DNA of 64,000 nucleotides, taken from contig NZ_BONF01000010.1 of assembly GCF_016862575.1 (NCBI RefSeq), positions 186,001 through 250,000 on the forward strand, given 5' to 3'. Made by a program: the position numbers and the translations under genes. How positions within the stretch are numbered: position 1 is the stretch's first letter; each line of letters begins with the position of its first letter. The stretch comes from Catellatospora bangladeshensis. GTDB taxonomy: Bacteria > Actinomycetota > Actinomycetes > Mycobacteriales > Micromonosporaceae. The notes beneath the pieces were generated by a model, which worked only from the letters and a program-made list of their open reading frames with translations, was not told the origin of the DNA and ran no database searches. Below, in pieces: positions 21,530 to 53,382 of the stretch.

Positions 21530-23901
21530 CCCCGCGGCCCCACCCGTCCGGCGCGCTGGAACATCCGCCTGCCGGGGCGGGGGCGTGGCGGGGCACCGCC
21601 AGGTGGCGGATGTACACGGTGGTCGCTCTCTGCCACGCTGCCCTCAGCCCGCGGTGGGAACCGCGGCCTGATCAGGAGGTCGCCGTGTCGGAGTCGCCGT
21701 CCCTCGCCGCCAAGGTCGTGCGCATGCTGGGCATCGTCGCGCACCTGGTGCTGCTGCCGTACTACCTGGCCAGCGGCCTGGTCGCGCCGCTGTGGGCGGT
21801 GATCGTGCTGGTGGCGGTGTGGGCCGCGCTGCTGGTGGTCGCGCTGCGGCTGTGGAAGACGCGCCCGTTCCTGGTGCCGCTGGTGCCGGTCGTGGCCGTG
21901 GCGATCTGGTTCGCCGCCGTCACCGCGGGCGAGACCTGGCTCAACTGGACCGCCTGACCCTCGATGTTGGGAAGGGCACCTTCTTATACGCATACGGGGT
22001 AGACCCGCATCCGCACGTTTGTGCGGATGCGGGTCTACCGTCGCGGCGCTGTTGTCAACAACTGTCGTTTGATCTTGTGCGGTGATGGTGGCGACTGTTG
22101 TCGGGCCGTCTCCGGCCAGGGTGATCTTGATGGTGGCGGTGGTCCGGCTGGTCATGATCACCTGGAGTCGGAGTGCGTCGTAGAGTTGTCGTTGCACCTC
22201 GGTCGGCAGTTCCGCCAGGTCGATGGCGGTGGTGGGGATGGCCTCCAGCAGAGTGGTGTCCTGTGTCGGGCTGTCGAGGATCTTGGCTTTGAGGCCGGTG
22301 ATGCGTTCGGCGACTTCGAGGCGTTCGGCTTCGAGTTCGCGGTGGCGGGTGCGGATCTGCTGCCGCCAGGTGCGGTCGTCGGGGTCGGCTTGTTCGAGGT
22401 CGAGGGTCAGGTTCCGCTGGCGTCGTTCGATGTCGGCGAGGTTGCGCTGGGCGGCTTCGATCGCCGCCTGGTGTTTGGCGGTTTCGACGGCTGGTGCCGC
22501 GGCGATCTGGTCGGCGAGCAGTTGGGCGCGTTCGGCGCTGAACACGCGGCGGGTGATGACGTCGTTGACGGCGGCGAGGACGGACTCCTCGCGGATGTAG
22601 ACGGTGCCGGGGTGTTGTGGGGCGCGGTCGGTGAGCTGGTCGTCGCTGTTGCGGGGTCCCCGGCAGGTGAGGTAGCGGCGGCCGTTGTTGTCCTTGCCGA
22701 CCATGCGTCGGTGGCATTCGGGGCAGCGGACGTAGCCGCGCAGGCTGTAGGTGTGCTTGGTCGCGGGGTGGGTGTTGGGTGCGTTGCCGCTACGGGATCC
22801 GGCGCGGTCGAGGTCGATCATCTGGGCCTGCTGGTAGGTGCGTAGGTCGATGAGCGGTTCGTGGGTGACGTTGGGTGACCAGACCCACTCGGAGGGGCGG
22901 ATCGGGCGTTTGCGTTTCTTGCGGCGTACGGTGACGCCTTCGCGGGTGGTGGAGCGGTTCCAGACCATGTGGCCGGTGTACTTGGGGTTGCGCAGCATGT
23001 CGCGCACGACCGGCCACCGCCAGCGCCGTTCGCCGTGCTCGCGGGTGGGTACCGGTGGTGGGTAGCGGTCGGGGTCGGCGTTGAACAGGTCGGCGATCTC
23101 CCGATAGGTCTTGGCGTCGTGTACGCGCAGCATGAACATCTCGGTGATCACTTCGCCGCGTTGCGGGTCGGCGACCAGGCGGGTCTTGGTCGCGCCTTGC
23201 GCGGCCCGCGCGGCGGCGGGGTGGCGCTCACGGGCGGGCAGGTACCCGTAGGGTGCGCGGCCGATGTTGTACCCGGCCCGGGTGTGTTCGGCGGTGCCTT
23301 CCCAGGCCAGTTCCATGGTCTGGATCGCGAACATCTCGCCGAACGCCTGCTTGACTCGCCTGATCAGGATCTTGGTGGCCTTGCGGCCGGACTTGCTCTC
23401 GCCCTCGTCGACGGCGATCAGGTCGATGCCGCACTTCTGCAGTTCGTGCTCGACCTTGGTGTTGTAGTACATGACGCGGGCCAGCCGTTCGGCGCTTTCG
23501 CAGATGACCAGGTCGAAGGCGCGGTCCTTGCGGCCTGCCTCCTCGATCATCTCGTGCATGCCGCCGTCGCGCTGGTGGGGGACGTTGAAACGGGCCAGGA
23601 GTTCGTCGGTACCCTGGCCCCGGTCGTCGAACTCCATGCGCCCGGACTCGATGTCGATGAAGATCCGGGTGACGACCATCAGCGGCAGGATCCGTTTCTT
23701 GCAGTTGTCGAACTGCCGATTGATCGACCCGGGGATGTTCTGCAGCTCGCTGTCGGACACCCGGAACAGAAGCGCGACGTTGATCACCTGGCCGGGCACC
23801 AGGGGCGAGATGCTCGTCCAGGGGGTGGGGTGGGAGTTGGGGCGCGGACCGAAGACATCCGGGCCCAGGGGTGGGTGTTCTTCTTCCGGCTGGCCGTTCA
23901 T
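21058..23901 (-). CDS. int: Large serine recombinase (element integrase)
   Basis: The ATG at 23901 opens a resolvase domain with the catalytic serine in FRVSD (Ser49) and the ICESAERLAR segment. A recombinase domain (NIGRAPYGYLPA, LRNPKYTGHMVWNR), a zinc ribbon (CPEC at Cys393/Cys396 with a later LTC) and a coiled coil (about 480-560) follow. This is the layout of phage and integrative-element integrases. Recognisable integrase sequence ends around 22060, at about residue 610. Beyond that the frame stays open through the hairpin at 21998-22039 and antisense to two host genes until 21058. The true end in the free element is probably different because the att site is here. Confidence 0.85.
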   Translation of the reverse strand: MNGQPEEEHPPLGPDVFGPRPNSHPTPWTSISPLVPGQVINVALLFRVSDSELQNIPGSINRQFDNCKKRILPLMVVTRIFIDIESGRMEFDDRGQGTDELLARFNVPHQRDGGMHEMIEEAGRKDRAFDLVICESAERLARVMYYNTKVEHELQKCGIDLIAVDEGESKSGRKATKILIRRVKQAFGEMFAIQTMELAWEGTAEHTRAGYNIGRAPYGYLPARERHPAAARAAQGATKTRLVADPQRGEVITEMFMLRVHDAKTYREIADLFNADPDRYPPPVPTREHGERRWRWPVVRDMLRNPKYTGHMVWNRSTTREGVTVRRKKRKRPIRPSEWVWSPNVTHEPLIDLRTYQQAQMIDLDRAGSRSGNAPNTHPATKHTYSLRGYVRCPECHRRMVGKDNNGRRYLTCRGPRNSDDQLTDRAPQHPGTVYIREESVLAAVNDVITRRVFSAERAQLLADQIAAAPAVETAKHQAAIEAAQRNLADIERRQRNLTLDLEQADPDDRTWRQQIRTRHRELEAERLEVAERITGLKAKILDSPTQDTTLLEAIPTTAIDLAELPTEVQRQLYDALRLQVIMTSRTTATIKITLAGDGPTTVATITAQDQTTVVDNSAATVDPHPHKRADAGLPRMRIRRCPSQHRGSGGPVEPGLARGDGGEPDRHGHDRHQRHQERARLPQPQRDHQQRGPHRHQHDHRPQRRDQAAGQVVRQQHQVRDDAQHAHDLGGEGRRLRHGDLLIRPRFPPRAEGSVAESDHRVHPPPGGAPPRPRPGRRMFQRAGRVGPRGHQWARSPWCSTVRRWVGRVSATYRSLWPRGDSATIPPGSAMTTESNSRPLASRTDSTVTASVSSACPFPPCGTAAATTAPSSATRPEGTSTPSVPSPSAAASRRTTSARRSASSARSTSDSCGACPVCRTERGGCSSGSMLLSTCPARSMISAGVR
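21685..21957 (+). CDS. Small three-helix membrane protein
   Basis: A protein of 90 residues from GTG 21685, with AGGAGG 6 bases upstream, which is why the longer frame starting at 21526 was not used. Three hydrophobic segments (about residues 12-30, 33-55 and 62-80) leave short loops. A basic RLWKTRP loop sits between the second and third. Function is unknown. It is the last clearly chromosomal gene before the integrated element. A GAAGG-GCA-CCTTC hairpin with a short T-rich end follows at about 21970-21985. Confidence 0.7.
   Translation: MSESPSLAAKVVRMLGIVAHLVLLPYYLASGLVAPLWAVIVLVAVWAALLVVALRLWKTRPFLVPLVPVVAVAIWFAAVTAGETWLNWTA
21998..22039. terminator. 19-base perfect hairpin at the left element border
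   Basis: The arms GGTAGACCCGCATCCGCAC (21998-22016) and the exact complement (22021-22039) enclose a GTTT tetraloop. It lies between the end of recognisable integrase sequence and the last host gene. It could terminate transcription from both sides, be part of the integrase attachment arm, or both. Confidence 0.7.
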
Positions 23902-26870: not shown

Positions 26871-27743
26871 CTACCTGCGCTTGCGCCGCTCCAGCACGGC
26901 GGGGGCGTACTGCCAGGTCGCTACGGCATGCTCGTAGAGCCTGCGCAGGTCGATCAGACGGTGCAGGCCCCGTTCGCCGGGGATCGACCAGATCCGGTCG
27001 GCGGGGGTTTCCGCGGGGTTGAGCCGGTCGGCGGCGATGGTCGCGACCGGCACGGGCGTGTGCAGGTCGCCGATGCGTTCGTGCAGGGCCGCCTCCCGGC
27101 GGGCCGAGTGCAGCCGGAACAGCAGCGGCCAGGGCGGGGCTTCGCTGTAGGTGATCGCCTCCTGGTATCGCTCGATCTTGCCGGTGAGCACTGACAACTG
27201 CTCGGTGCCGGTGTCGTACTCGAACAGCAGCGCCACGAACGTGTCCTGCTCGCTCCATTCGGCGTAGCCGTCGGGCTGCAGGTACACGCGCGCGGACTGG
27301 CCGGGCTCGGGGTCCCAGCGCAGCAGCCGCGCGGGCGGGTTGCGGCGGGCGTGCCCGGCCAGGTCGGTGAAGAAGCCGTTGACTCCGGCGGTGTGGGCGT
27401 GGTTGCGGCTGGTGGCCAGCCGGTGGCGGCGCGCGGCGGTTTCGGCGGGCCGTGGCGGTTTGAGGCCGTAGGACGAGGCCGCCAGCACCGCGCCGGGGTG
27501 GGCAAGGACGTAGGACCAGGGGTAGGTGCCGCCGTCGGGGCGGTGCGGCCGGAACCGGTCGATCACCTTCATGTTCATCAGTTCCAGCAGCCGCTGCTGG
27601 GCCGTGCGCGGTGACGGGAACAGCGCGGTGGTGACCTGCGGGGTGGTCAGCACCCCGTGGTCGAACAGCCAGCACAGCAGCGTCCAGTCCCGGTCGGTCA
27701 GCCGGGACTGGACCCGCAGCACGATGTCATCGCTTGTTTTCAT
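26871..27743 (-). CDS. Replication-relaxation family protein
   Basis: A protein of 290 residues. The N-terminus is a winged helix (RLTDRDWTLLCWLFDHGVLTTPQVTTALF, RLLELMNMKVIDRF). The segment YPWSYVLAHPGAVLAA and the helical nuclease-like core (FTDLAGHAR, YAEWSEQD, FLYEYDTGTEQL-type strand) follow. This matches the replication-relaxation family (PF13814), found on actinobacterial plasmids and integrative elements and proposed to act in DNA nicking or replication initiation. The start is ATG at 27743, overlapping the stop of the previous gene (ATGA), so translation is coupled. A role in element replication or mobilisation is inferred. Confidence 0.85.
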   Translation of the reverse strand: MKTSDDIVLRVQSRLTDRDWTLLCWLFDHGVLTTPQVTTALFPSPRTAQQRLLELMNMKVIDRFRPHRPDGGTYPWSYVLAHPGAVLAASSYGLKPPRPAETAARRHRLATSRNHAHTAGVNGFFTDLAGHARRNPPARLLRWDPEPGQSARVYLQPDGYAEWSEQDTFVALLFEYDTGTEQLSVLTGKIERYQEAITYSEAPPWPLLFRLHSARREAALHERIGDLHTPVPVATIAADRLNPAETPADRIWSIPGERGLHRLIDLRRLYEHAVATWQYAPAVLERRKRR

Positions 27744-29016: not shown

Positions 29017-29618
29017 CTCGGCCTCCAGGAGAAGAAGAGCCAGCCCGCACCGGGACCGGCGCGGGCTGGCGACAACGACGTCAAGCGCGCCTCAGGACCG
29101 AGGCGCGCTGACTTCTACCTATGGGACAGGTGCTGCCCGCCGCCGGATTCGACTACCTGTGACACAGGACACTCGACACCCGTTCGGGAAAGGGCTCGGA
29201 GGATCTGCCGCGAGACGATCTACATGCAGGCCAGCCCTTAAGACCATCGCCACGAAGGGCACCTATCGTTATTGATCGAGATATCCAGACCTGTCGATTG
29301 CATACGTCATCGGTGGGACCTCGATATGGAATCAGGGGATCTTCATCAGCACCTCCCCCAACCTGCACATCGGCCAATAACAGAGCGTGCTGCGGCACCG
29401 CTCGCGCGAGTCCAGTTAGATGCTTCCGCGGCTTCTGCCGACAGATGAGCCCTCAGACAAGTACGACCGCGCTGTCGCCGGAGGCCCCTACCAGGTGCGG
29501 TCCGGCGTGCAAGCCACCGGACAGGGTGAACCGTCCGACTGTCCCATGGCGCGAAGCCAGGGTACCGTCCAAAATCGATCTCACGCTTGCATGCGAGGTC
29601 GGCGAGAGGGAACGACGA
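29017..29618. other. Intergenic region between DUF2637 operon and Gabija
   Basis: A divergent region of about 600 bases. The hairpins AGCGCGCCTC/GAGGCGCGCT (29084-29109) and AGCCCGC/GCGGGCT (29042-29067) lie near the DUF2637 start. CCTGTG-A-CACAGG (29156-29168) is a perfect operator-like palindrome. The GC content drops from about 29230 on. Frames upstream of GajA are open but show no domain. Promoters for both directions should lie here. Confidence 0.5.
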
Positions 29619-31610
29619 GTGAGACTCAAGGCAGTCGAGGTACGTAACTTCAGGTCGCTCCTCGACGTATGCATCGCGATCGACATGACGACCACCTTGA
29701 TCGTTGGCAAGAACAACACTGGAAAGACATCTCTGCTAGATGTATTTTCCAAGTTCGTCCACGTCGGCGGAAGCTTTGCCATCGAAGATCTATCTACGGT
29801 ACGAATCAACGATCTCGTCGCAGCCGTCCATAAGTATGCGCAGAGCAAGACTGAGCGCAACAACGGCAACGAACCAGCAGCAGAAGATCTGCTCAAGCAG
29901 GCATTAGCACTGATTCCGTCCATTGAGCTAAAACTCACATTTGAGTACACGGCCGAGGACGATATCGCGCCGATAGCCAGCATCATTCTGGACCTCGACG
30001 AGTCGAGCCACGAGGCAAAGCTCTGCGCAGCTCTCGAGATGGCGAAGCCGCTGGAGTTTCTCGAAGAGACGTACGCCATAGAACCAGCAGATCAGCTAGT
30101 AAAGTACATCAGAAGAAGCTTCGGACGAGTTTTCGCCGCTCGGTACTATGCAGTTGACGCCGTAACGAGTTCACATCGCGTTGAAGTTAACAGGACCATC
30201 GTACAGAAAATATTCAGCACGAACTTCATCTACGCCCAGAATAAGCTCGACGACTCGTCCGCAGACACCACAAGGAACCTCTCAAAGACCTTTGCCGCAT
30301 ATTACAACTTGGCTGGTGCCGACAATCCCAGTGTCGAAGATATAGAAAACGCTCTTGCGCAAGTTGCCGTTCAGTTGGACGGCAAGTACGAAACTCTGTT
30401 CAAGCCGATCTTCGATGATCTAAACGGATTCGGCGTGGACACCATTACTCCGATACAGAATCTAAAGGTTCAGGCGTATTTCGAGGCCAATAGGATTGTC
30501 GAAGGAAATACTCGGCTCTACTATGAGTCCGGCGGACATCTATTGCCCGAAGGATACAACGGCCTGGGTTACACAAAACTGATCTTCACGATACTCCAGT
30601 GCGTGGCTTCATATGAGGCCTACTTGAAGTCGGCACCCAAGCCATCGTTCCAGGTACTCTTTATTGAAGAACCCGAGGCGCACCTGCATCCGCAGATGCA
30701 GGAGGTGTTCATCAAGAACGTAAAGGAATACATTCAAAGCAAGGCGGGATGGAATGTTCAGGTCATCATCACGACGCACTCCTCGCACATCGTAGCCAGC
30801 AGCAGCTTCGCCAATATCAGATACTTCGACAACTCCGACTCGGCGTCCATCGTCGTTAAGGACTTGTCGACGTTTCAGGGCAAGGTTTCGGAAGATGCTG
30901 ATAATACGCTGAGATTCCTGCGCCAGCACATGGTGCTGAGTAAGTGCGATCTGTTCTTCGCGGATCGAGTAATTCTAGTTGAGGGGACAGTGGAGCGCCT
31001 CCTGCTCCCGGCCATGATAGCCGAATGCGTGCCAACGCTCAGGCACAAGTACGTTTCGCTAGTCGAGGTTGGCGGAGCCTACGCACACAAATTCAAGGAG
31101 CTACTCACCTTCATCAACATCCCCACCCTTGTCATCACGGATATCGACTCCGTCGACCCGAGCTCCCGCGGCAAGGCATGTGAGACGTCAGTTGCCGGTG
31201 CCGTCACATCCAATGCGACTCTGAAGACGTGGCTGCCGAAGCGGGTGTCGATATCGGACCTAATCGCGCTTCCGGAATCACAAAAAGTCGACGGGATGTT
31301 CAGGGTTGCATATCAGGTATCTGAGGCTTCCGGGGGCAAGGTCGGCAGGAGCTTCGAAGAAGCGTTCATTCTCGCAAACGCGCAGGTAATTGCAACTCAG
31401 CTTTCGAGCTTGGCGCTGAAGGACCATTTTACCGACGACGTTACCGGCGATCCGCTATCCGAGACTGACATTCAAGCCAACTCTTATGAGGTGGCCAAAA
31501 GCCTGTCTAACAAAAAGACCGACCTTGCGTTCGACATTATGTATCTTTCGAACTGGAACGTGCCCAGGTACATCAAGGAAGGGCTAGAATGGCTCAGTCG
31601 CGGGCACTGA
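29619..31610 (+). CDS. gajA: Gabija GajA-like OLD-family ATPase/TOPRIM nuclease
   Basis: A protein of 663 residues from GTG 29619 (RLKAVEVRNFRSLLDV); the open frame continues upstream without recognisable domain. Walker A is VGKNNTGKT (Lys36), the ABC-type D-loop region is IEEPEAHLHPQM (Glu350-Glu351) and TTHSSHI is the switch His. A C-terminal TOPRIM domain has LVEGTVE (Glu455) and TDIDSVD (Asp508, Asp510). This is a class 2 OLD nuclease. With the adjacent UvrD-like gene it forms a Gabija antiphage pair, in which GajA nicks DNA when nucleotide levels fall. It is somewhat longer than the best-studied GajA (about 580 residues). Codon use is clearly AT-richer than the surroundings, a sign of transfer. 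Confidence 0.85.
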   Translation: MRLKAVEVRNFRSLLDVCIAIDMTTTLIVGKNNTGKTSLLDVFSKFVHVGGSFAIEDLSTVRINDLVAAVHKYAQSKTERNNGNEPAAEDLLKQALALIPSIELKLTFEYTAEDDIAPIASIILDLDESSHEAKLCAALEMAKPLEFLEETYAIEPADQLVKYIRRSFGRVFAARYYAVDAVTSSHRVEVNRTIVQKIFSTNFIYAQNKLDDSSADTTRNLSKTFAAYYNLAGADNPSVEDIENALAQVAVQLDGKYETLFKPIFDDLNGFGVDTITPIQNLKVQAYFEANRIVEGNTRLYYESGGHLLPEGYNGLGYTKLIFTILQCVASYEAYLKSAPKPSFQVLFIEEPEAHLHPQMQEVFIKNVKEYIQSKAGWNVQVIITTHSSHIVASSSFANIRYFDNSDSASIVVKDLSTFQGKVSEDADNTLRFLRQHMVLSKCDLFFADRVILVEGTVERLLLPAMIAECVPTLRHKYVSLVEVGGAYAHKFKELLTFINIPTLVITDIDSVDPSSRGKACETSVAGAVTSNATLKTWLPKRVSISDLIALPESQKVDGMFRVAYQVSEASGGKVGRSFEEAFILANAQVIATQLSSLALKDHFTDDVTGDPLSETDIQANSYEVAKSLSNKKTDLAFDIMYLSNWNVPRYIKEGLEWLSRGH

Positions 31611-33226
31611 CAGAGGTAGAAGAAGCGCTGGATGAGCGGCGCAGTTTCGTAGTGGAAGCCGGCGCTGGTTCCGGTAAGACCTACGCGCTTGTTCATGGAC
31701 TCCGATATCTTCTTGCAAGCCAACGCCGATATCTTGAGCGAAACAACAAGAGGATCGCTTGTATCACCTACACCAATGTAGCGAAGAACGAGATATCTGA
31801 GCGCTTGGCGGATGATCCGCTCGTTTTCGTCGGAACCATCCATGAATTCCTGTGGTCGGTCATTCAAAGATTCCAGTCAGAGCTCAAGATGCATCTTGTT
31901 GATTACAATTCGACCGTCCGCAAGCCGGTGGAGAACCTGGAAGTCCTCCTTGACGCCCTTCCGGTGGTCTATTCGGATCGCGGACGGAAATTCGAAAGAG
32001 GTCAACTGTTCCACGACGATGTGATCGAGCTGTCGTACCGTCTATTTGCCCATCACCCAAAGATCGCCCGCATTGCGAGAAGCCAATTTCCGTACATCTT
32101 CGTCGACGAGTATCAGGACACGGAAAAGCGAACGATTGATCTACTCTTGAACCACTTACTCAGAGGAGGCGAAGACGGATGTCTGGTCGGCCTTTTCGGT
32201 GATTCAATGCAGAAGATCTACAATTCGGGAGTTGGATCGGTTTCTCACGAGAGACTGACCAGAATCAGCAAAATTGAGAACTATAGATGCTCTCGACGTG
32301 TCATTGAGCTTCTCAACAAGATTCGACCTTCTCTCCAACAGGTTGCCGCCGGGAATAATCTAGACGGACAGGTCGCCTTCTTTGTAGGTGCACCCGACGT
32401 GAGCCATGACGGAAATCTTGCTGCCGTTCGGCAGATACTTTTGCGGAGTGGCTGGACGGACGACAACACCAAGGTTCTGATGCTGACCCATAGGGGGATC
32501 GCCGACCGTTTGAAGTATCGCGGACTACTTGATGTATACGATCGGCGCGGCAGCTTCGCACGCGACAACCTTCTTGACGGAACCGACGCGTTCGCCGACC
32601 TATTCTCCAAGATCGAGGTCTTGTGTCGAGCCCTCGATAATCAGGATTTTGGAACGGTTTTCTCGGTTATCGGCCGCGACAGCTTGCGGCTCAGCAGGCA
32701 TAGCGACAAAGTCCATATTGCGAAGATCTTAACCGAACTTGCCAAGCTACGACTGAATAGCGACGTCGGCACGATTTTGGACTACGTATTTACCAAGAGA
32801 GTCCTTCAGAAGTCTGGTGCCATTAGGTTTATTGAAGACAGAGCCGAGGCCGAAACTCCCGAAGCGGAGAAGGACAAAGACTTTCTTGCTAACTTGCGCC
32901 TCGTCCCGTATCGGGAGGTAATAGAGTTTACGACATTCCGCGAATCCTCCACGCCATTTTCAACACAGCATGGCGTAAAGGGCGCCGAGTTCGACAATGT
33001 GCTTGTCGTTGTCGATGATGACGGCTGGAACCAATACAACATTGGTAACATGATGGCCAACACCGAGCGACTTCCACAGCGTTTTGAACGCTCGCGGAAC
33101 TTGTTCTACGTCTGTTGCTCGCGCGCGCGGGATGGTTTAGCCGTCGCGTTTCTGTCGTCTCCTCCGAATGCGGCTATCGAAACGGCGAAGAATTGGTTCG
33201 GTGCGCTAAACGTTCACTATCTGTAG
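31589..33226 (+). CDS. gajB: Gabija GajB-like UvrD-type helicase
   Basis: A protein of 545 residues. The start ATG at 31589 overlaps GajA by 22 bases. SF1A motifs appear in order: AGAGSGKT (Lys30), ITYTNVAKNEI, VDEYQDT (Asp173-Glu174), FGDSMQKIY, ENYRCS, LMLTHRG, the HGVKGAEFDNV segment, and FYVCCSRAR. GajB works with GajA in Gabija defence, sensing DNA ends and hydrolysing nucleotides to trigger GajA. As in its partner, AT-rich third positions contrast with the flanks. The pair ends at 33226 and no other gene shares the operon. Confidence 0.85.
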   Translation: MAQSRALTEVEEALDERRSFVVEAGAGSGKTYALVHGLRYLLASQRRYLERNNKRIACITYTNVAKNEISERLADDPLVFVGTIHEFLWSVIQRFQSELKMHLVDYNSTVRKPVENLEVLLDALPVVYSDRGRKFERGQLFHDDVIELSYRLFAHHPKIARIARSQFPYIFVDEYQDTEKRTIDLLLNHLLRGGEDGCLVGLFGDSMQKIYNSGVGSVSHERLTRISKIENYRCSRRVIELLNKIRPSLQQVAAGNNLDGQVAFFVGAPDVSHDGNLAAVRQILLRSGWTDDNTKVLMLTHRGIADRLKYRGLLDVYDRRGSFARDNLLDGTDAFADLFSKIEVLCRALDNQDFGTVFSVIGRDSLRLSRHSDKVHIAKILTELAKLRLNSDVGTILDYVFTKRVLQKSGAIRFIEDRAEAETPEAEKDKDFLANLRLVPYREVIEFTTFRESSTPFSTQHGVKGAEFDNVLVVVDDDGWNQYNIGNMMANTERLPQRFERSRNLFYVCCSRARDGLAVAFLSSPPNAAIETAKNWFGALNVHYL

Positions 33227-37064: not shown

Positions 37065-37259
37065 ATGTGGCTGCCCAGGCGGTGGCGCAAACGGAGCTGC
37101 ATCGACCCGATCGGCACCGTACAAGGTCGGGTGGCGATGCACGGTTGCCGCTGCCCATGCGCTCTGTGCGGGTTCACCGCGATGTTCGACTCGACTGCGC
37201 TCAGCAGGCCGTATGTGCTCGGGACGAGAGCACTCACAGCCGGGTCACGGCCAGGGTGA
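37065..37259 (+). CDS. Small Cys-rich protein upstream of the lanthipeptide precursor
   Basis: A protein of 64 residues. ATG 37065 is preceded by TAGGAGAGG at ideal distance. A basic start (MWLPRRWRKRSC) is followed by MHGCRCPCALCGFTAMF, with four Cys in nine residues, which could bind a metal or act as a peptide substrate. No family was recognised. It lies 240 bases ahead of the next small frame and on the same strand as the lanthipeptide genes, so it may be part of the locus. Confidence 0.4.
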   Translation: MWLPRRWRKRSCIDPIGTVQGRVAMHGCRCPCALCGFTAMFDSTALSRPYVLGTRALTAGSRPG

Positions 37260-37374
37260 CCCGCATCTTGCTCCCGGCCTGGACCTGGCACGGTCATCGC
37301 CCCCGTGAGACCACACAGGGTGTGTGGCATCCCGGGCCGGGAGCTCTCTCCCACGCGAACCGAGGAGGTGAGAC

Positions 37375-37422
37375 ATGCGAGACCGCATCCGGCACTCGAA
37401 GGTTCCGCGCGCCGGCCCGTGA
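37375..37422 (+). CDS. Possible 15-residue leader peptide
   Basis: ATG 37375 is preceded by GAGGAGGTGA, an almost full match to the end of 16S rRNA, at good distance. The frame codes MRDRIRHSKVPRAGP and stops. Such strong initiation before a very short frame, 85 bases upstream of the precursor gene, could mean a translated leader that controls the operon. It might also be accidental. Confidence 0.3.
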   Translation: MRDRIRHSKVPRAGP

Positions 37423-37506
37423 CGGCAGGTAAAGGCGCTCGCTGATACAGGCCAAGATCGCCCCACTGGGCACCCCGTACACCGATCCGACTTCAAGGAG
37501 ACCGTC

Positions 37507-37659
37507 ATGCAGGCAATTGACGACGTCCAGGACGCCTTCGCCCTGGACCTCCGCGTCACCGACGACGTCCCTCCGGGACTGGACAACAAGCGGTGCGGGA
37601 CCAACGACGGCTGCGCGGGCACGTGCGCGTCGTCGTGCGTTACGCACAGCCCCAACTGA
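37507..37659 (+). CDS. FxLD family lanthipeptide precursor
   Basis: A frame of 50 codons with AAGGAGA upstream of ATG 37507. The leader contains Phe11-Ala-Leu-Asp14, the FxLD motif. The probable core begins near Arg29-Cys30. It has Cys at 30, 36, 40 and 44, and Ser/Thr at 32, 39, 42, 43, 46 and 48, ending HSPN. Dehydration of Ser/Thr and ring closure by Cys would give up to four lanthionine or methyllanthionine rings. Asp34-Gly35 in the core is a natural target for the methyltransferase of this locus. The dehydratase, cyclase and methyltransferase follow on the same strand. The cleavage site and ring pattern cannot be read from the sequence. Confidence 0.88.
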   Translation: MQAIDDVQDAFALDLRVTDDVPPGLDNKRCGTNDGCAGTCASSCVTHSPN

Positions 37660-37671
37660 TCCAAGGCCACG

Positions 37672-37699
37672 CGGGGCCGGGCTTGCCCGCCCGGCTCCG
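37672..37699 (+). terminator. Hairpin between precursor and dehydratase genes
   Basis: CGGGGCCGGGC (37672-37682) pairs with GCCCGGCTCCG (37689-37699), with one mismatch and a 6-base loop. It lies 13 bases after the precursor stop. Such partial terminators make precursor mRNA more abundant than enzyme mRNA in many RiPP operons. Confidence 0.6.
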
Positions 37700-37731
37700 C
37701 ACCCTTCCACACCGATGAGGAGGAGCAAGCC

Positions 37732-42011: not shown

Positions 42012-43241
42012 ATGAGCATCGCCACCGACACACCCGCCGAAGAGCTGCACTCGCGCATGATCGCCGCGATCAACGCGCACAGCCCGCACCGACCACGCAC
42101 CATCGACACGATGAGCGCCATCCCGCGCCTGGAGTTCCTGCGCGAGATCAACCCCGACGTCACCGCCGAGGACGCCTACAATCCCGAACTCGCCGTCATC
42201 ACGCTGAAGCACCCGGACACCGGCGCGACGCTGAGCTGCTCCTCCGTGCCGACACTCGTCGCCACGATGCTCGACCAGGCCGACATCCAGCCCGGTGACC
42301 GCGTTCTGGAGATCGGCTCGGCAACCGGCATCAACGCCGCCTACCTCGCCCACCTCGCCGGACCAGACGGCGAGGTGACCACACTCGACATCGACCCATG
42401 GGTCACCGACGGCACCCGCCGAGCACTCGACGCCAACGGCTACACGCAGGTCCGCGTGGTCACCCGCGACGGAGCCCTCGGCTATGCCGAAGCGGCGCCC
42501 TACGACAAGATCGTGGTCACCGTCGGCGCGTTCGACCTCGCCGCCGCCTGGTGGGACCAGCTCGCTCCCGGCGGGCGCATCGTCGTGCCGCTGCGCTGGC
42601 GCGGCCAGACGCGCAGCCTCGCCCTGGTCCGCGACCGGGACCGGCTCGTCTCGGAGTCGGTCGTGCTGTGCGGCTTCGTACCGATGATCGGGCAGGAAGG
42701 CGAGAGGTCCGCCGCGATCGACCCCGACGGCACCGTGCACCTCTACTGGGACGAGGACCAGGCCATCAACCCCGCCGCGCTCGCGGAGGTGCTCGACCAG
42801 CCGAAGACCGAGACCTGGACGGACGTCACGATCGTGGCGGAGGAGCCGTTCGACGGCATCTGGCTGCGGATGACCGCCGTAGAGCCTGGCACGTGCCGCA
42901 TCGAGGCCAAGCCCGCCGCCGTCGCGTCCGGGTTGTGCAAGCCGGCCATTCCAGTACGCAGCCCGGCCATAGCCGAGGGCGACTCGCTGGCGTACTTCGT
43001 GCTGAGGATCAAGTCCGACGCGCCACAACGCCGATGGGAACTCGGCGCAGCCGCGCACGGCCCCGCCAGCCCGCAGCTCGCCGACCGGCTGTGCGCACAG
43101 ATTCGGGCCTGGGACGCGGCCCGCAAAGAGGAGCCGAAGGTCATCGCCTACCGCGGCGGCACGCTCGCCGACGACCAGCCCGGCCTGGTCGTGATCGCCA
43201 AGCGGGATTGCTCGCTGACGGTCGAGTACCCAGCACGCTGA
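42012..43241 (+). CDS. FxLD-system methyltransferase (protein isoaspartate O-methyltransferase-like)
   Basis: A protein of 409 residues. The start is ATG 42012 with GGAAGGA upstream. The first 230 residues are a protein-L-isoaspartate O-methyltransferase fold with SAM motif VLEIGSATG (about 98-106) and the usual SSVPTLVATMLD segment before it. The following 180 residues are an extension seen in methyltransferases of FxLD systems. In related lanthipeptide pathways such enzymes methylate an Asp side chain, giving aspartimide and then isoaspartate. The Asp34-Gly35 of the precursor would be the obvious site. It closes the operon and is followed by a hairpin. Confidence 0.88.
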   Translation: MSIATDTPAEELHSRMIAAINAHSPHRPRTIDTMSAIPRLEFLREINPDVTAEDAYNPELAVITLKHPDTGATLSCSSVPTLVATMLDQADIQPGDRVLEIGSATGINAAYLAHLAGPDGEVTTLDIDPWVTDGTRRALDANGYTQVRVVTRDGALGYAEAAPYDKIVVTVGAFDLAAAWWDQLAPGGRIVVPLRWRGQTRSLALVRDRDRLVSESVVLCGFVPMIGQEGERSAAIDPDGTVHLYWDEDQAINPAALAEVLDQPKTETWTDVTIVAEEPFDGIWLRMTAVEPGTCRIEAKPAAVASGLCKPAIPVRSPAIAEGDSLAYFVLRIKSDAPQRRWELGAAAHGPASPQLADRLCAQIRAWDAARKEEPKVIAYRGGTLADDQPGLVVIAKRDCSLTVEYPAR

Positions 43242-43592
43242 GGCCGGTCCTGCGCAACGCTCCCCGTCACCCCCAGCGGATCCACGCGTCGCTGTTTCTC
43301 GGACGCGACAGCCGCCGTGCGCCGGACCGTACGGCGGCTGGACGCCCGCACTTCGATGGTGGTCGTCGGGGTCCTTGAGCAGCGAAAATCATCGGTCATC
43401 TTCGCTTGTGTGATGCCTCCACTCCGCGTGATGGCGGACTGGGACATCGTGACGGCGCGCCTGGGAACGTCGCGACGAGGCGGGCGGCTCCTGGTAGTTT
43501 CCCGCCGGTGTTGTCAAGCCCGGCGTGGATCCCGCTGCAGTCGCCGTGACCGCAACGCTCGCCGAACCGGGCCACTTTCGGTCGCGGTCGGG
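43242..43592. other. Convergent intergenic region after the lanthipeptide operon
   Basis: About 350 bases between two converging genes. It contains the terminator at 43310-43339 and otherwise no frame with a recognisable domain or promoter. Confidence 0.6.
43310..43339. terminator. Terminator of the lanthipeptide operon
   Basis: AGCCGCCGT (43310-43318) pairs with ACGGCGGCT (43331-43339), with partial pairing continuing inward. It lies 69 bases after the methyltransferase stop. Confidence 0.65.
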
Positions 43593-45167
43593 TTACCGGG
43601 TGAGTGCCTGCCCCGTCGAGGACTCGCCGCCCAACAGTGGGTCGGTGCGCTGCTCGCTCTCGGGCAGATTCATCGCTGCGGCGAGGAGATCGCCGAGCCG
43701 GCGGGCGTCGTCCAGCCCTTGCCCCTTGCCCGCCCAGTCGTCGAAGGTGAGCCTGATGTTCTCGTCCATGGTGATGACATCCAGGACGGGGCCTCGCTTG
43801 TCACGTTGACGGAACCGCACGTAGCGGATGTCCGAGAGAGGGAACTCGCGATCAATCGTCCCCTGTCTGCGCACCGCGTTCTGTGCGGAGATGAAGAAGC
43901 GTCGGGGTGTCACGCCGAGGTACGCGTTGTCGCCGACGAGGCGGTCGAGATTCACGTCGGCGATGGCCAGCAAGGGCTCCTCGTCGGGAACGGCCCAGCG
44001 GAGGATCCGCAGCACATCCGCCGGCACGGCCTCATCGAATACCGTGAGAGGCGGATCAAGCGGAGCACGTTGGGTGCGGGCGACATTGCGGAGCTCCGCC
44101 ACCCGCTCGGCCAACGCTTCGGCCATGGCGACGGCGTCGCGGATGTTCCGGCGCTTGGTGGTGAACGGCAGGCTGCGCTCTTCCGGCAATTCGGCCATCA
44201 GACGGCACTGGCGTTCGAGGCCGGCGAGCAGAGCCGCCACGTCGTCCATGACCTGGGTGTGTTCGCGCTCCGCCGCGGGGACCATTTCAGCCAGCAGTCG
44301 TTCGTTCTCGACGGCATTCGCCTCGTCGCGGCTGATGTGACCGGCCCGCAACACCTGCGCGCGATACCAGGACCACTCCGCCATGAGCACGCCGTGTGCG
44401 TCGGCGAGAAGCTGCTCGATGTTCTTCTGGATGTAGGCGCGACGGCTCGGCCCGTTGGTGTCGAGCGCCTTGATGTGCCCGCGGAGGAACGACATGAAGA
44501 GGAGGCGTTGCGTGCGCAGGTCTGCCTCCCTGGTCGCGATGGGGGCGAAGACGTGGTCGGTGACAGCGCCGACCACCTGGGCCTCACGCACAGCGCGCAT
44601 CGTCGTCTCGTGCAGGCCGAGCAGCGTCGCCCACTGATCCTCGTGCAGCGCCCGGAGCACGTCACGCGTGAGTTCGATGTTCTCGTCGATGCGCCGTGAG
44701 ATCGACGCCAACTGCACCTGCAGCGCCAAGAGCGCGGCGGCCGGTCCGAGGGTGGCGAGCAGGCCTGCGGTCTGCGCCCCGGTCGCCGGCGCCCAGCGCA
44801 CCGAGTGGGCGAACCTGCTGTTGCTCGTGACGAGCGTGCCCATGTTCCAGCCGCCCGACGTCATCGGCTGCGCCGTCTTGAGCGCCTGCAAGGTCTGGGG
44901 CGCCAGACGCACCAGCCCCTGCACAGTCGTCGCGCCCTGCGCGCCCTGCGCCGCCAGATTGCCGATGCCCGCCGCCATCGCGAGCTTGTCGGTCAGGCGC
45001 CGGCCTGTCTTAGCACTCAGCATCTCGAAGGGGATCAGGTCGAGGTCATCAGGTGCCTTGTCCGCGAAGAGTACGGCCACTCCCGGCTCGATCTCGACCA
45101 GGCTCACCGTCGGCTCATCGGTCGGGGCCGCCGGGGTTCCGGTGGGCTCTACTTCGGAATTTGTCAC
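43593..45167 (-). CDS. Large helical hypothetical protein with C-terminal PH-like domain
   Basis: A protein of 524 residues from ATG 45167. The N-terminus is acidic and disordered. A hydrophobic stretch occurs at about residues 145-160 (LLATLGPAAALLALQVQLA), and the middle (about 160-390) is a long helical region. A C-terminal domain (about 395-480) reads like a bacterial PH or YokE-type beta barrel (AYLGVTPRRFFISAQNAV, FPLSDIRYVRF, DVITMDENIRLTFDDW). It sits immediately downstream of the restriction genes on the same strand, 130 bases after HsdR, so it may be a passenger in the defence operon. No family is named with confidence. Confidence 0.65.
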   Translation of the reverse strand: MTNSEVEPTGTPAAPTDEPTVSLVEIEPGVAVLFADKAPDDLDLIPFEMLSAKTGRRLTDKLAMAAGIGNLAAQGAQGATTVQGLVRLAPQTLQALKTAQPMTSGGWNMGTLVTSNSRFAHSVRWAPATGAQTAGLLATLGPAAALLALQVQLASISRRIDENIELTRDVLRALHEDQWATLLGLHETTMRAVREAQVVGAVTDHVFAPIATREADLRTQRLLFMSFLRGHIKALDTNGPSRRAYIQKNIEQLLADAHGVLMAEWSWYRAQVLRAGHISRDEANAVENERLLAEMVPAAEREHTQVMDDVAALLAGLERQCRLMAELPEERSLPFTTKRRNIRDAVAMAEALAERVAELRNVARTQRAPLDPPLTVFDEAVPADVLRILRWAVPDEEPLLAIADVNLDRLVGDNAYLGVTPRRFFISAQNAVRRQGTIDREFPLSDIRYVRFRQRDKRGPVLDVITMDENIRLTFDDWAGKGQGLDDARRLGDLLAAAMNLPESEQRTDPLLGGESSTGQALTR

Positions 45168-45297: not shown

Positions 45298-48480
<3,183 letters not shown>

Positions 48481-48513
48481 CTCTGTGAGGGGTGAATGGG
48501 GTCGGGCATCTAC

Positions 48514-49701
48514 TCAGGCCGCGTCCGATACCAAGCACTCGGCATCCTTGAGCCGCAAGGCGCCTGAAATCAGGCCTGGCAGCAGGGAGTCGCGAAGCCC
48601 CGCGAGGTGTATGGATTCCGCGTCGAGCGACCGAACGTGGTTAAACATCGCCTGCGCATCGGCTCCAAATTTTTGGAGATCTGCTTCGTCGGGACGCACG
48701 ATGCGGAAGCCCGGCAGCACATCGGCTGGGCAACGCTGTCTCCCCGAGGTACCCACCATGTTAGAGATAGCGTGCTGTCTAAACCTCGGGCTACGGGCAA
48801 TGGCATAGGTGAAATGCTGAGGTATCCCCGGCTTAGATCTAAGCACGATGAATTCAGTAGATCCAACTGCGATCTCGTCGGCATCCAAGAAGTCGATGAA
48901 GGCTGTCTTGCCATTCTCAAGGCAGGGAGTGATCCGGGCCATGATTGTGTCGCCGTTGCGGAATTTCATTCCCGAGGTGGCCACTCGCCGTCCCGGCGAC
49001 GTCACCCGACCGCGACTTGTCGGAACCGCAGCCATGTCGACATACGCTGCAATTCCGCGCGGAGTCGGGTAGGTCGGGTTGAAGCTGATGAGATCCATAA
49101 GAGGAACAGTGTTCGACAGCAGGCCGGGTTCATCGTCCCAGCCGTATTGGACAAAGCGTGCCGCCAACAATGCCTCGTACGTCTCGGCGATCCGCTCGTT
49201 AACCCCGATCTTGTCGTCCAGCGCTCCTAGGATTTCAGCGATGGCCATCTGGGTTGTGTAGCCAGGATCAGGTATACGGACTTTCAGTAGCTCAGGCTGC
49301 CGGATTCCAGCGACGGTTGATCCACTGGCCCTGCTGTATAGGTCTGCCTGCACACTTTTTGTCTTAAAAGCGTAGTAAAGATACCTGCTATCCAGTACCC
49401 CTTTACGGCCCCGCAGAGCATAGAGACGTTGTGCGATCGCTAATGGTTCGTCACTCTCGACTAACGCGCACTCGCCAAGGGGTGCCTCTGACGTCAAGAT
49501 AACATCGTGACGATTGATCTCGACCTGCATCCAGTTCTCGTAAGTTTCCCGGGAAATTCTCCGAGCCTCTCCGAGATTGATGCGTCCATTCTTCACCGCC
49601 TTTGCTGAGATCACGGGGATGCCGTTCTCCGTATACGGAGGATTCTTTCCTCGGTTATCGATTAAGACTTCCAAGGAGTCGCCGAGAATTAGCTCAAGCA
49701 T
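48514..49701 (-). CDS. hsdS: Type I restriction specificity subunit S
   Basis: A protein of 395 residues with the two target-recognition halves typical of HsdS. Each ends in a conserved helix (for example QMAIAEILGALDDKIGVNERIAETYEALL after the first half). The start overlaps the HsdM stop by eight bases. GC content is visibly lower than in HsdM and HsdR, as is common for S subunits that are exchanged by recombination. The target sequence cannot be predicted from this alone. Confidence 0.9.
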   Translation of the reverse strand: MLELILGDSLEVLIDNRGKNPPYTENGIPVISAKAVKNGRINLGEARRISRETYENWMQVEINRHDVILTSEAPLGECALVESDEPLAIAQRLYALRGRKGVLDSRYLYYAFKTKSVQADLYSRASGSTVAGIRQPELLKVRIPDPGYTTQMAIAEILGALDDKIGVNERIAETYEALLAARFVQYGWDDEPGLLSNTVPLMDLISFNPTYPTPRGIAAYVDMAAVPTSRGRVTSPGRRVATSGMKFRNGDTIMARITPCLENGKTAFIDFLDADEIAVGSTEFIVLRSKPGIPQHFTYAIARSPRFRQHAISNMVGTSGRQRCPADVLPGFRIVRPDEADLQKFGADAQAMFNHVRSLDAESIHLAGLRDSLLPGLISGALRLKDAECLVSDAA

Positions 49702-51316
49702 CGACCCTCCCCAACTGCTTCCTCACCGCGGCTTCAAGTTGAGCTGCCTCGTCGAAGTGTTCGAAGAGTTCCTCGGTTAGCCTTGCGATCTTCTCCTCGG
49801 TCGGTTCGCCGCCGTCGGTGTCCATCTCGGCTACCCCGACGTACCGACCGGGGCTGAGCACAAAGTCGTGTTCGCGGATCTCGGCAAGGGTGACGTTCTT
49901 GCAGAAGCCAGCTACATCGGCATAATCAATGGTCTTGTCGGTGCCTCGCCAGGCATGGTAGGTCCGGCTGATCTGCTGGATCTCTTTGTCAGTGAGCTCC
50001 TTATCGGTGCGGTTGATCATCACGCCCATGTTGCGGGCGTCGATGAACAGCACCTGATCGACGCGGTTGGCAAGTCGTTTCGCGCCCTGCGGGCTCTTGT
50101 CCTTGGCAAGGAACCACACGCAGACCGGGATCTGCGTCGAGCGGAACAGCTGTCCGGGCAACGCGATCATGCAGGCGACGAGATCACCCTCGACCATCGC
50201 TTTGCGGATGTCACCCTCTCCGGACTGCTTGCTTGCCATGGAGCCGTTGGCGAGCACGACGCCGGCGCGGCCCTTGGGGCTGAGCTTGTGGGCCATGTGT
50301 TGCAGCCAACCGAAGTTGGCGTTGCCCACTGGCGGTATGCCGTACTCCCAGCGCGGGTCCATGACGAGTCGCTCGCCACCCCAATCGGAGATGTTGAACG
50401 GCGGGTTGGCCATGACCACGTCGGCACGCAGATCGGGGTGCTCGTCCTCGTGGAAGCTGTCGGCCCACTTCTTACCGAGGTTGGCCTCGATGCCGTGGAT
50501 GGCGAGGTTCATCTTCGCCAGCCGCCAGGTGTTCTGGTTGAGTTCCTGGCCGTACACGGAGATGTCGAAGGCCCGTCCGCCGTGGGTCTCGATGAACTTC
50601 TCCGCCTGGACGAACATGCCGCCTGACCCGCATGCGGGGTCGTAGACCCGCTCGCCCGGCTGCGGTTCGAGGACTTCCACCAAAAGCTTGACCACGTGCT
50701 TGGGCGTGTAGAACTCGCCGCCCCGGCGACCCTCCGCGAGCGCGAACTTCTCCAGGCAGTACTCGTACACCTCGCCGAGCACGTCACGCGCGCTGCGGCG
50801 GGTGCCGTCCTCGTTGAGCTGGTCGCGGAACCCGAGCTTGTGGATCAGATCGACGAGTTCGGCGAGGCGGCGCTCGTCAACACCGCGGCCGTTGTAGAGG
50901 CCCTGCGGCAGCGCGCCCTTGAGGTCGGGGTTGGCGTCACCGACTACCTTCATCGCGCCGTCGAGCAGCTCGCCGATGGGGGTCTGCCCGGCACCGCTCT
51001 TGGCGCGCTCGGCCAGGGTCTCCCAGCGGGCCGCGGCCGGCACCCAGAAGACCCCGCGCCCGGCGTATTCGTCGCGCTCTTCGAGGAGCTCGATGCGGTT
51101 GGCCTCGGGGATGCCCTCGTCCTCCAGCTCCTTCTCGATCTGCGCACGCCGCTCGTCGAAGGCGTCGGAGGTGTACTTGAGGAAGATCAGACCGAGCACG
51201 AAGTGCTTGTACTCGGCCGCGTCCATGCTGCCGCGCAGCTTGTCCGCCGCCTTCCAGAGGATGTCCCTCAGGTCGGCGGGCGCCGTTTCGGCGCTCTTTC
51301 GGGCACGTGGTGGCAT
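49694..51316 (-). CDS. hsdM: Type I restriction N6-adenine methyltransferase subunit M
   Basis: A protein of 540 residues from ATG 51316 with GAGGGAG upstream; GTG at 51340 forms a GTGA overlap with the preceding gene and is an alternative. The N-terminal helical domain (LWKAADKLRGSMDAAEYKH) precedes the methylase core with the SAM motif DPACGSGGM and the catalytic NPPF (about residue 303). Together with HsdS it recognises and methylates the site. It is part of a tightly packed operon of four genes. Confidence 0.92.
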   Translation of the reverse strand: MPPRARKSAETAPADLRDILWKAADKLRGSMDAAEYKHFVLGLIFLKYTSDAFDERRAQIEKELEDEGIPEANRIELLEERDEYAGRGVFWVPAAARWETLAERAKSGAGQTPIGELLDGAMKVVGDANPDLKGALPQGLYNGRGVDERRLAELVDLIHKLGFRDQLNEDGTRRSARDVLGEVYEYCLEKFALAEGRRGGEFYTPKHVVKLLVEVLEPQPGERVYDPACGSGGMFVQAEKFIETHGGRAFDISVYGQELNQNTWRLAKMNLAIHGIEANLGKKWADSFHEDEHPDLRADVVMANPPFNISDWGGERLVMDPRWEYGIPPVGNANFGWLQHMAHKLSPKGRAGVVLANGSMASKQSGEGDIRKAMVEGDLVACMIALPGQLFRSTQIPVCVWFLAKDKSPQGAKRLANRVDQVLFIDARNMGVMINRTDKELTDKEIQQISRTYHAWRGTDKTIDYADVAGFCKNVTLAEIREHDFVLSPGRYVGVAEMDTDGGEPTEEKIARLTEELFEHFDEAAQLEAAVRKQLGRVDA

Positions 51317-51336
51317 CTGTTCTTCTCCCTCGACTG

Positions 51337-53382
51337 TCACTTGGCGGTGCTGAGTTTCATACGCAGGCTGAAAGCTCCGGACGCGACGCCGGTGGCCAGC
51401 CGCCTCCGAGCGGCGTCCAGTGCGTTCACCTGCTGCTGTGCCTGTTCGGTGAGTTCGGTCAGCTCCCGTGCCGCCAGGTCGAGCTGTTGCAGCTCGGTCG
51501 GCGAGAGCATCGGGACGTCAAGATGGTCCAGGCCCGCCCGGCGGACCCGGTGGTCGCCGCGGGCGGTGTTGCGGTCCGCGACCATCAGCGCGGCCAGGGC
51601 GTACGGGCCGATCCATGCCTGCTGCGGCTCGTCGCGGTGCAGCGAGCTGTGCTTGACCTGACCTGGGATGCGCAGACCCTGCACAGGGGTGAGCAGGACG
51701 CTGCCGCCCTGCTCGTCGACGATGGCGCGCAACTGCTCGCCGGTCAGGATGATGACGTCGCCGGGTTCGGTGACGGCCGCCGCGTTGTACTGCCCGAGGG
51801 CAGCCAGCTCGATCCGGCGTGCGCCGACCGGCAGGTGGCCGAGCAGCTCCTCGCTGCCCAACACCCGCTGGCCCTGGCGGGTAAGCTGTCCTGCGGGAAT
51901 GCGGTGCCCCGGCAGGCGGATCAGTTGGCGTCCCCGGATCAGTTCACCGATGCTGCGGTGCACGGTTCGCGCCTGCCGGGGGGTGATGTCGATGCGGTCG
52001 AGCGCTGACACCGCGTCGACGGCGGCGGTGAACGTCGCGATCGCCGTGGTGCGTGCCCGCACGGCGTCGAGGAGGTGATCCTGCGGAGCTGCCTGCGGTG
52101 TCAGCAGGTGTGCGGGGAGCAGGGTGCGCCCGGCCAGCAGCTCGGAGGCGGGAACCTCCCGGCAGAGCCGCGCGTCCCGAGTGGCCGAACCGCACACCAG
52201 CTCGGCGGTGTGCTGGGTCCAGGTCGCGCCGACGCGGGCGCGCACCCGGTCCGCGTCGCAGACGACCACCTGACGCGTGGTGTCGCCGGTGTCGGCGGCG
52301 AGCACCAGCAGCACCAGGTCGGCCCCGCCGAGGTACGGGTGGACGTGACGCGGCAGCTGGATGATCGCGCGGACGCAGCCACGCCGCACCAGCTGCTCTC
52401 GCGACCACGTCACCGGCAGCCGGGTGGCGGTCGCGGTGCGCGTCAGCGTCCACTGCGGCACGACGGCGAAGCCGACCGCGTCGTCGTCAAGGCATTCAAC
52501 GACGCTGGCCGCCCAGGAGAGCGGGTGATCCTGCTGCTGCTCATGCTCGCCGGACTGGAACGGCGGGTCGGCGAAGACGACGTCGGCACTCGCCCTGCCG
52601 TCGTGGGGAGCCACGTCACGCAGGCCGTGGCAGAGCAGGCGAAGCCTCATCAACTCCACTGCGGCGGGGTCGGTCTCCGCGTACCGCGCGGTCCGGGCTC
52701 GGCCGCGCGAGGCGGCGGTGGCCAGGAACGCCCCGCTGCCGGCGGCGAGGTCGGCGACGGCGAGCTCGCCGGACTCGCCGAGCAGCTCACTGGCAATGTG
52801 GATGGCCAGGTCACTGATGGCAGTAGGGGTCTGGGTCGGTGCCGCCCACCACGTGCCGCCTGCCGACTCGATGATCGCTTCTGCCGCGGCAGGGGCGCCC
52901 AACTGGCCGATCAGACGCTCGACTTCGGCGAGCTGCGACAACGCCACAGCCGGGTGCTCGCGGACCGGCTGGAAGACGCCGGTGAGGTCGACGTGCTGAG
53001 CCTCGGCCGCCTCGGCGGTGGCGCGCAGCTGTTCCTCGCTGGTCGGCAGCGGCCGGCCGTGGAGGTGACGCAGCGCGGCCACTGCCAGGCCGGCGCGCAC
53101 GCGGGCGTCGGCGTCGGCGTCGGCGGAGTGCGTGCCGACGGCAGGACCGCGGCGCAGGCCCTCGCGGAAGAGCTCGCCGTACGTCGCGCTCCGCTGCTGA
53201 GGCAGGCTGGTCGGCCGCTGGTCGAGCCATTGCGCCACCTGCTCGGCGTCGAACAGGGGCTGGGTCGCCGAACCGCCGATCGGGCGCGGAAAGTCGCCGT
53301 GGCGGCGTCGCCAGTTGCTGACACTGGGTCGTTGCACCTGGGCAAACTTCGCAATCTGCGCCATGGTCACTGTCACGGGCAT
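51337..53382 (-). CDS. N6-adenine DNA methylase with N-terminal helix-turn-helix
   Basis: A protein of 681 residues from ATG 53382, with GGAGGGG upstream (a longer frame begins at 53412). Residues 1-60 form a MerR- or XRE-like helix-turn-helix (MAQIAKFAQVQRPSVSNWRRR). A helical linker, a SAM motif DLAAGSGAFLA and a catalytic DPPF at about residue 272 follow. The C-terminal half resembles a target-recognition or type I M extension. It is the first gene of the restriction operon and overlaps HsdM in the GTGA context. It may be a second modification enzyme or, because of the DNA-binding N-terminus, a controller of the operon. Confidence 0.8.
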   Translation of the reverse strand: MPVTVTMAQIAKFAQVQRPSVSNWRRRHGDFPRPIGGSATQPLFDAEQVAQWLDQRPTSLPQQRSATYGELFREGLRRGPAVGTHSADADADARVRAGLAVAALRHLHGRPLPTSEEQLRATAEAAEAQHVDLTGVFQPVREHPAVALSQLAEVERLIGQLGAPAAAEAIIESAGGTWWAAPTQTPTAISDLAIHIASELLGESGELAVADLAAGSGAFLATAASRGRARTARYAETDPAAVELMRLRLLCHGLRDVAPHDGRASADVVFADPPFQSGEHEQQQDHPLSWAASVVECLDDDAVGFAVVPQWTLTRTATATRLPVTWSREQLVRRGCVRAIIQLPRHVHPYLGGADLVLLVLAADTGDTTRQVVVCDADRVRARVGATWTQHTAELVCGSATRDARLCREVPASELLAGRTLLPAHLLTPQAAPQDHLLDAVRARTTAIATFTAAVDAVSALDRIDITPRQARTVHRSIGELIRGRQLIRLPGHRIPAGQLTRQGQRVLGSEELLGHLPVGARRIELAALGQYNAAAVTEPGDVIILTGEQLRAIVDEQGGSVLLTPVQGLRIPGQVKHSSLHRDEPQQAWIGPYALAALMVADRNTARGDHRVRRAGLDHLDVPMLSPTELQQLDLAARELTELTEQAQQQVNALDAARRRLATGVASGAFSLRMKLSTAK

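Follow-up and report, generated by a model that had tools for sequence, protein, structure and literature searches.

The 64 kb stretch of Catellatospora bangladeshensis DNA analysed here (the window) contains a frame of only 50 codons directly in front of a lanthipeptide dehydratase gene. Is this frame a genuine precursor gene and, if so, to which branch of the FxLD lanthipeptides would its product belong, and how would the last ring of that product be made? The frame extends from an ATG at 37507 to a stop codon ending at 37659 and encodes MQAIDDVQDAFALDLRVTDDVPPGLDNKRCGTNDGCAGTCASSCVTHSPN. The leader carries FALD at residues 11-14 and the core begins at about C30, from which point there are four Cys (C30, C36, C40, C44) and six Ser/Thr residues (T32, T39, S42, S43, T46, S48). 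A preliminary description of this DNA had reported the frame, a good ribosome binding site, the FALD motif and this composition, and all of these are as it stated, with AAGGAG lying 6 bases 5' of the ATG. It had also called the peptide an FxLD precursor. This small peptide is in fact recognised by the curated NCBI model for FxLD lanthipeptides, TIGR04363, with a score of 32.9 bits (E 4.6e-8) that exceeds the cut-off of 30, and the pattern is more than would be expected by chance. Searches of the precursor against Pfam and, by sequence, against solved structures returned no match. Nor did the sequence search bring up the NMR entry for OlvA that PMC13001092 names, perhaps because the core is shorter than 20 residues.

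Table 1. Features of the window and their coordinates, in order of position.
Feature	Position	Strand	Remarks
Serine recombinase	21058-23901		left of operon
Replic_Relax (replication-relaxation) gene	26871-27743		left of operon
Gabija pair GajA/GajB	29298-33226		left of operon
Divergent helix-turn-helix regulator, 398 aa	35559-36755	-	PF13560 43.3 bits
Ribosome binding site AAGGAG	37495-37500	+	read from sequence; 6 bases between its end and the ATG
FxLD lanthipeptide precursor (LanA, OlvA type), 50 aa	37507-37659	+	TIGR04363 match
Core region C30-N50, CGTNDGCAGTCASSCVTHSPN	37594-37656	+	TNDGC fits motif TxDGC (PMC10787088)
12-bp RNA hairpin, precursor/LanB gap	37671-37700	+	folding of a 72-base stretch versus shuffles
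LanB, full-length dehydratase (glutamylation and glutamyl lyase domain), 1018 aa	37732-40788	+	PF04738 628.6 bits; PF14028 133.6 bits
LanC cyclase, 392 aa	40785-41963	+	PF05147 147.2 bits; WCYG and CHG motifs
LanSA-type aspartyl O-methyltransferase, 409 aa, without fused glutamyl lyase	42012-43241	+	TIGR04364 388.2 bits; PF01135 118.4 bits
Type I restriction system	45298-51340		right of operon; further methylase-like gene to 53412
ATPase with partial LmuB match	54270-56726
Shango-like SngA/SngB	58098-62509

The features of the window are collected in Table 1. The order on the + strand is precursor, LanB, LanC and methyltransferase (A-B-C-SA), with all four frames open and of full length and with the start of LanC overlapping the stop of LanB. 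Profile matches confirm both this order and the families, as had been proposed from the letters alone. The presence of a full-length LanB and a separate LanC (PF04738, PF14028 and PF05147) places the locus in class I. The motifs WCYG, CHG and EIGSATG are present in the operon enzymes, the first two in LanC, where we take them to play their customary role. The methyltransferase adjoins this class I lanthipeptide locus and is well above the curated TIGR04364 cut-off of 320 bits; a looser methyltransferase motif search gave zero matches, and PF14028 does not match this protein. The earlier phrase “complete class I locus” stands for LanB, LanC and the methyltransferase and goes too far for the rest, as the ORFs scanned from about 33.3 to 45.2 kb included none recognisable as a gene for a protease, a transporter or immunity. 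In the gap between precursor and LanB, the 72-base stretch that includes the hairpin folds with a z value of -2.98, and 2 of 200 shuffles fold equally well. The hairpin, which has no run of T 3' of its stem, could keep LanB below the level of the precursor. Two neighbouring ORFs were set aside. One, directly upstream of the precursor (37067-37432, +), has no domain and was treated as a non-gene. The other (43317-44699, +) also has no domain and was taken, from its codon composition, to be a shadow of the ORF at 43593-45167 (-). The latter, of 524 aa, was matched at the thresholds used by nothing in Pfam, NCBIfam or PADLOC, and the other loci compared contain no relative of it.

The operon is set among defence genes (21058-62509 of the window), with Gabija on one side and type I restriction on the other. 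No tRNA that might mark the end of an island was found in the 64 kb. In 11 genomes of the genus, its own included, there is no close copy of LanB outside the window, the best other match having 40% identity. Arrival of the operon by transfer is likely. This setting also bears on the possibility that the cluster is decayed or silent, its genes being intact by sequence and yet giving no product. The location among defence genes, the lack of a close LanB in the other 10 genomes and the absence, from the adjoining ORFs scanned, of a recognised protease, transporter or immunity gene would all suit such a cluster. However, the four frames have remained open at full length, the WCYG, CHG and EIGSATG motifs are kept, and the missing protease is general in olv and coi clusters as these are described (PMC9486935); a silent cluster is therefore unlikely.

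The divergent regulator has relatives in 9 other loci, with 25-34% identity, and is possibly tied to the operon. Regulator-like proteins recur near the 65 olv-type loci, an NsdA-like group at 31 and an HTH-DUF5753 group at 26 of these; the flank-protein groups were formed by single linkage, two members of each were scanned, and genes of this sort may be frequent in any case. The ten members scanned comprise HTH and DUF5753 regulators, NsdA-like, HATPase, RNA ligase-like and APH proteins and one protein with no match, and no protease or transporter was recognised among them.

The FxLD/olv-coi family has already been published (PMC9486935, PMC13001092, PMC10787088, PMC7268733), and its FxLD kind is common. 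TIGR04363 matches occurred in 18 of 61 genomes, the present one included, and in at least 50 of 397 genomes drawn from the order, scoring having been limited to 18 candidates per genome. Relatives of the operon were collected from GTDB genomes with an alignment of LanB as query; the best 80 of 100 relatives yielded 78 loci, including L129 from Streptomyces olivaceus NRRL B-3009. The complete set held 99 sources (the window and L067-L164), from which L164, with no LanB ORF, and L102, L121, L122 and L143, taken as copies of L083, L082, L068 and L081 respectively, were left out, so that 94 loci remained. The pattern search for precursors gave none in 31 of the 94. At 49 loci, the window included, the methyltransferase lies downstream only and the core pattern is present; two of these, L089 and L090, have no LanC match. 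Loci with the methyltransferase upstream possess diverse cores. All 49 olv-order cores contain a Cys shortly before the ring-A Thr, a residue that the looser search pattern did not demand. At the last ring position 42 of them carry Ser and 7, with the window among these, carry Thr. Precursors homologous to that of the window adjoin FxLD methyltransferases in many genomes, and the lack of such neighbours, which the preliminary description had named as evidence against its assignment, was not what we found.

In the window precursor we find TxDGC with its conserved Asp, the further Cys before this motif and two overlapping C-terminal ring sites, the features that mark membership of the olv group. 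The further Cys alone fails to sort the groups because it is shared by L070, L075, L076 and L077, which have the methyltransferase upstream, and by L069, which has one on both sides. Gene order alone also fails: L071 and L141 both have the downstream order and lie outside the 64-row LanB set described below, and the methyltransferase of L071 carries a fused lyase. We also considered whether the N-terminal Cys and a C-terminal Cys might be interchangeable, and rejected this: L076, L077, L109 and L125 have both, and PMC9486935 assigns the further Cys to another lanthionine. Two variants were seen in passing. Asn-Gly stands in place of Asp-Gly in L126 (TSNGC) and in the first precursor of L080 (SDNGC), with the methyltransferase still present; Asn-Gly could reach the aspartimide unaided. 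A short precursor with two core Cys before the stop (TDDGCDTVKTGDC and close relatives) is found in four genomes (L003/L071, L012, L014, L019).

A LanB tree of 88 rows (L079 and rows shorter than 800 aa were dropped) groups the window with S. olivaceus in a 64-row set whose support is 100 by a quick method without bootstrap. Within this set the methyltransferase is downstream in 58 rows, was not found in 5 and is on both sides in 1. OlvB lies in a separate inner branch of 12 mostly Streptomyces rows, apart from the window, whose LanB has as its nearest row among the 88 that of Planosporangium L087, with 53% identity. S. olivaceus NRRL B-3009 is the source strain of the characterised product OlvA (PMC13001092), and the L129 precursor is taken to be OlvA, an assignment made from the genome, because it is the only TIGR04363 precursor found there. 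Its core, CGTGDGCAKTCASSCASS, and that of the window agree at 11 of the 13 positions that run from the ring-A Thr to the last Cys. The statement that the core matches no known product must accordingly be withdrawn, since it carries the olv pattern. As to the suggestion that the mature compound may be new, the kind is known, and three peptide fragments were absent from the main texts of the literature searched; any novelty of the compound is therefore probably confined to its details. Together, gene order, core and tree make it very probable that the locus is an olv-type class I lanthipeptide operon, A-B-C-SA.

The alternative that must be weighed against this assignment concerns the last ring. 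As described in PMC9486935, coi differs from olv by an extra glutamyl lyase on the methyltransferase and by D-allo-L-methyllanthionine at the last ring. Were the window a member of the coi type, a second, syn-acting glutamyl lyase would dehydrate the last Thr and lead to D-allo-L-methyllanthionine, as in CoiA1. The residue at ring D is indeed Thr46, like Thr57 of CoiA1 (PMC9486935), and the two other FxLD systems of this genome, on contigs C11 and C58, do have a second lyase. On C10, the contig of the window, however, the sole PF14028 match lies inside LanB, with no second lyase fused or nearby; the 409-aa methyltransferase has no PF14028 domain and is downstream, and the further Cys is present. 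We consider the coi reading improbable. A search for PF14028 in 12 genomes, with contigs matched to loci by coordinates, points in the same direction. All three clusters with the methyltransferase upstream (G000 C11, G019 C2, G050 C4) have a further match some 2 kb from that of LanB, as do G000 C58, where it is fused to the downstream methyltransferase, and G019 C1. None was seen near LanB in any of the 11 olv-type clusters checked, which were the window, G428 C9, G429 C32, G430 C23, G431 C78, G432 C62, G433 C152, G434 C40, G435 C79, and G040 C1 and C3; on the olv-type contigs the nearest other PF14028 match lies at a distance of about 35 kb. Lyases encoded on other contigs (C11, C58 or C14) could act in trans. 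Further PF14028 pairs occur in the genomes searched, for example in G435 C19, G434 C52 and G431 C40.

The genome of the window, at 8.8 Mb, has three TIGR04363 matches, two of them over the cut-off (the window precursor scores 32 bits in this genome-wide search) and the one on C58 below it, and three TIGR04364 methyltransferases over the cut-off, on C10, C11 and C58. The systems on C11 (L070) and C58 (L071) are two further FxLD systems, both with a second glutamyl lyase, which in L071 is fused to the methyltransferase.

That the 50-codon frame is a chance small ORF 5' of LanB, with the real precursor located elsewhere, is very unlikely, for although its TIGR04363 score is near the family cut-off, the S. 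olivaceus precursor scores equally low, at 31 bits, and the leader motif and core pattern recur beside LanB, with the methyltransferase downstream only, in 48 others of the 94 loci (the window being counted in the 94). The precursor gene is genuine and would supply the raw peptide for a ring-linked natural product.

By analogy with the published work on olv and coi, maturation of an olv-type product from this peptide may be pictured as follows. LanB would dehydrate T32, T39, T46 and S42 (or S43), and LanC would then close four thioether rings, T32-C36, T39-C44, C40-T46 (with the Cys N-terminal) and C30-S42 (or S43). The first three pairings are proposed because the ring positions of CoiA1, Cys47 to Dhb43, Cys55 to Dhb50 and Cys51 to Dhb57 (PMC9486935), can be carried over to the window. 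The fourth is inferred from the way in which PMC9486935 words its account of an extra lanthionine in OlvA. In 28 of 52 olv-like cores the segment from FxLD+10 to the first core Cys is free of Ser and Thr, and by eye that of the window is too; C30 would therefore have to pair with a downstream residue. Most such precursors share the TxDGC motif (PMC10787088), and in the TNDGC ring of the window Asp34 is followed by Gly. The methyltransferase would act after cyclisation and methylate Asp34 within the T32-C36 ring; OlvSA is reported to act only on cyclised peptide (PMC13001092). The methyl ester would then collapse to an aspartimide that opens mostly to isoaspartate; with OlvSA the aspartimide opens to 70-80% isoAsp, the ester being transient and isoAsp and Asp the final forms (PMC13001092). 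The advice to look for methylation in the mature mass may for this reason mislead. The calculated monoisotopic masses of C30-N50 are 1983.718 unmodified and 1911.676 after four dehydrations, and for the fourfold dehydrated form 1925.691 as methyl ester and 1893.665 as aspartimide; K28-R29 directly precedes C30, and the core is free of Lys and Arg. The leader would be removed by a protease encoded elsewhere. The product might serve as a secreted signal, act in development or be antibacterial. As of 2022, according to PMC9486935, no product of the family had been reported from a native producer, and the leader cleavage site and the role were unknown.

With Thr46 and no second lyase nearby, the olv-type reading predicts a methyllanthionine where OlvA has lanthionine. 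It is in our judgement as likely as not that the product combines the four-ring skeleton of OlvA with a C40-T46 methyllanthionine made by the anti-acting lyase of LanB itself. If it does, the last ring would have a chemistry seen in neither OlvA (LL-lanthionine) nor CoiA1 (D-allo-L-methyllanthionine). Because this Thr occurs without a lyase next to the operon, the window offers a test of whether a separate syn-lyase really sets the stereochemistry of the last ring. It shares this configuration with other Thr-type cores, as none of the five checked among the 7 in olv order (L090 and L093 lay outside the search) has a second lyase near LanB.

Comparison with known systems places these results in context. 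With Lanthipeptide families I 1-4 of Walker et al. 2020 (PMC7268733) the window has in common class I, an actinobacterial origin, a PF01135 methyltransferase and a conserved core Asp. With coi of S. coelicolor A3(2) (CoiA1, CoiB, CoiC, CoiSA, CoiH), as published (PMC9486935), it shares by spacing an N-terminal ring and two overlapping C-terminal rings, and also the Thr at the last ring position; unlike the window methyltransferase, CoiSA carries a fused glutamyl lyase, and in CoiA1 an Asn takes the place of the further Cys of OlvA. With olv of S. olivaceus (OlvA, OlvB, OlvC, OlvSA) the likeness extends to the gene order A-B-C-SA and the core pattern CxTxDGCxxTCASSCx[ST], and in neither does LanB have a second lyase nearby. 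The enzymes differ, with identities of 42% for LanB, 45% for LanC and 45% for the methyltransferase, and the precursors differ in the Ser that OlvA has in place of Thr46, in the tail (ASS in OlvA, VTHSPN in the window) and in the leader outside the common motif. Judged by its genes, then, the window operon is an ordinary and well supported member of the olv branch of the LanSA lanthipeptides, and a clear, divergent addition to a widespread actinobacterial family.
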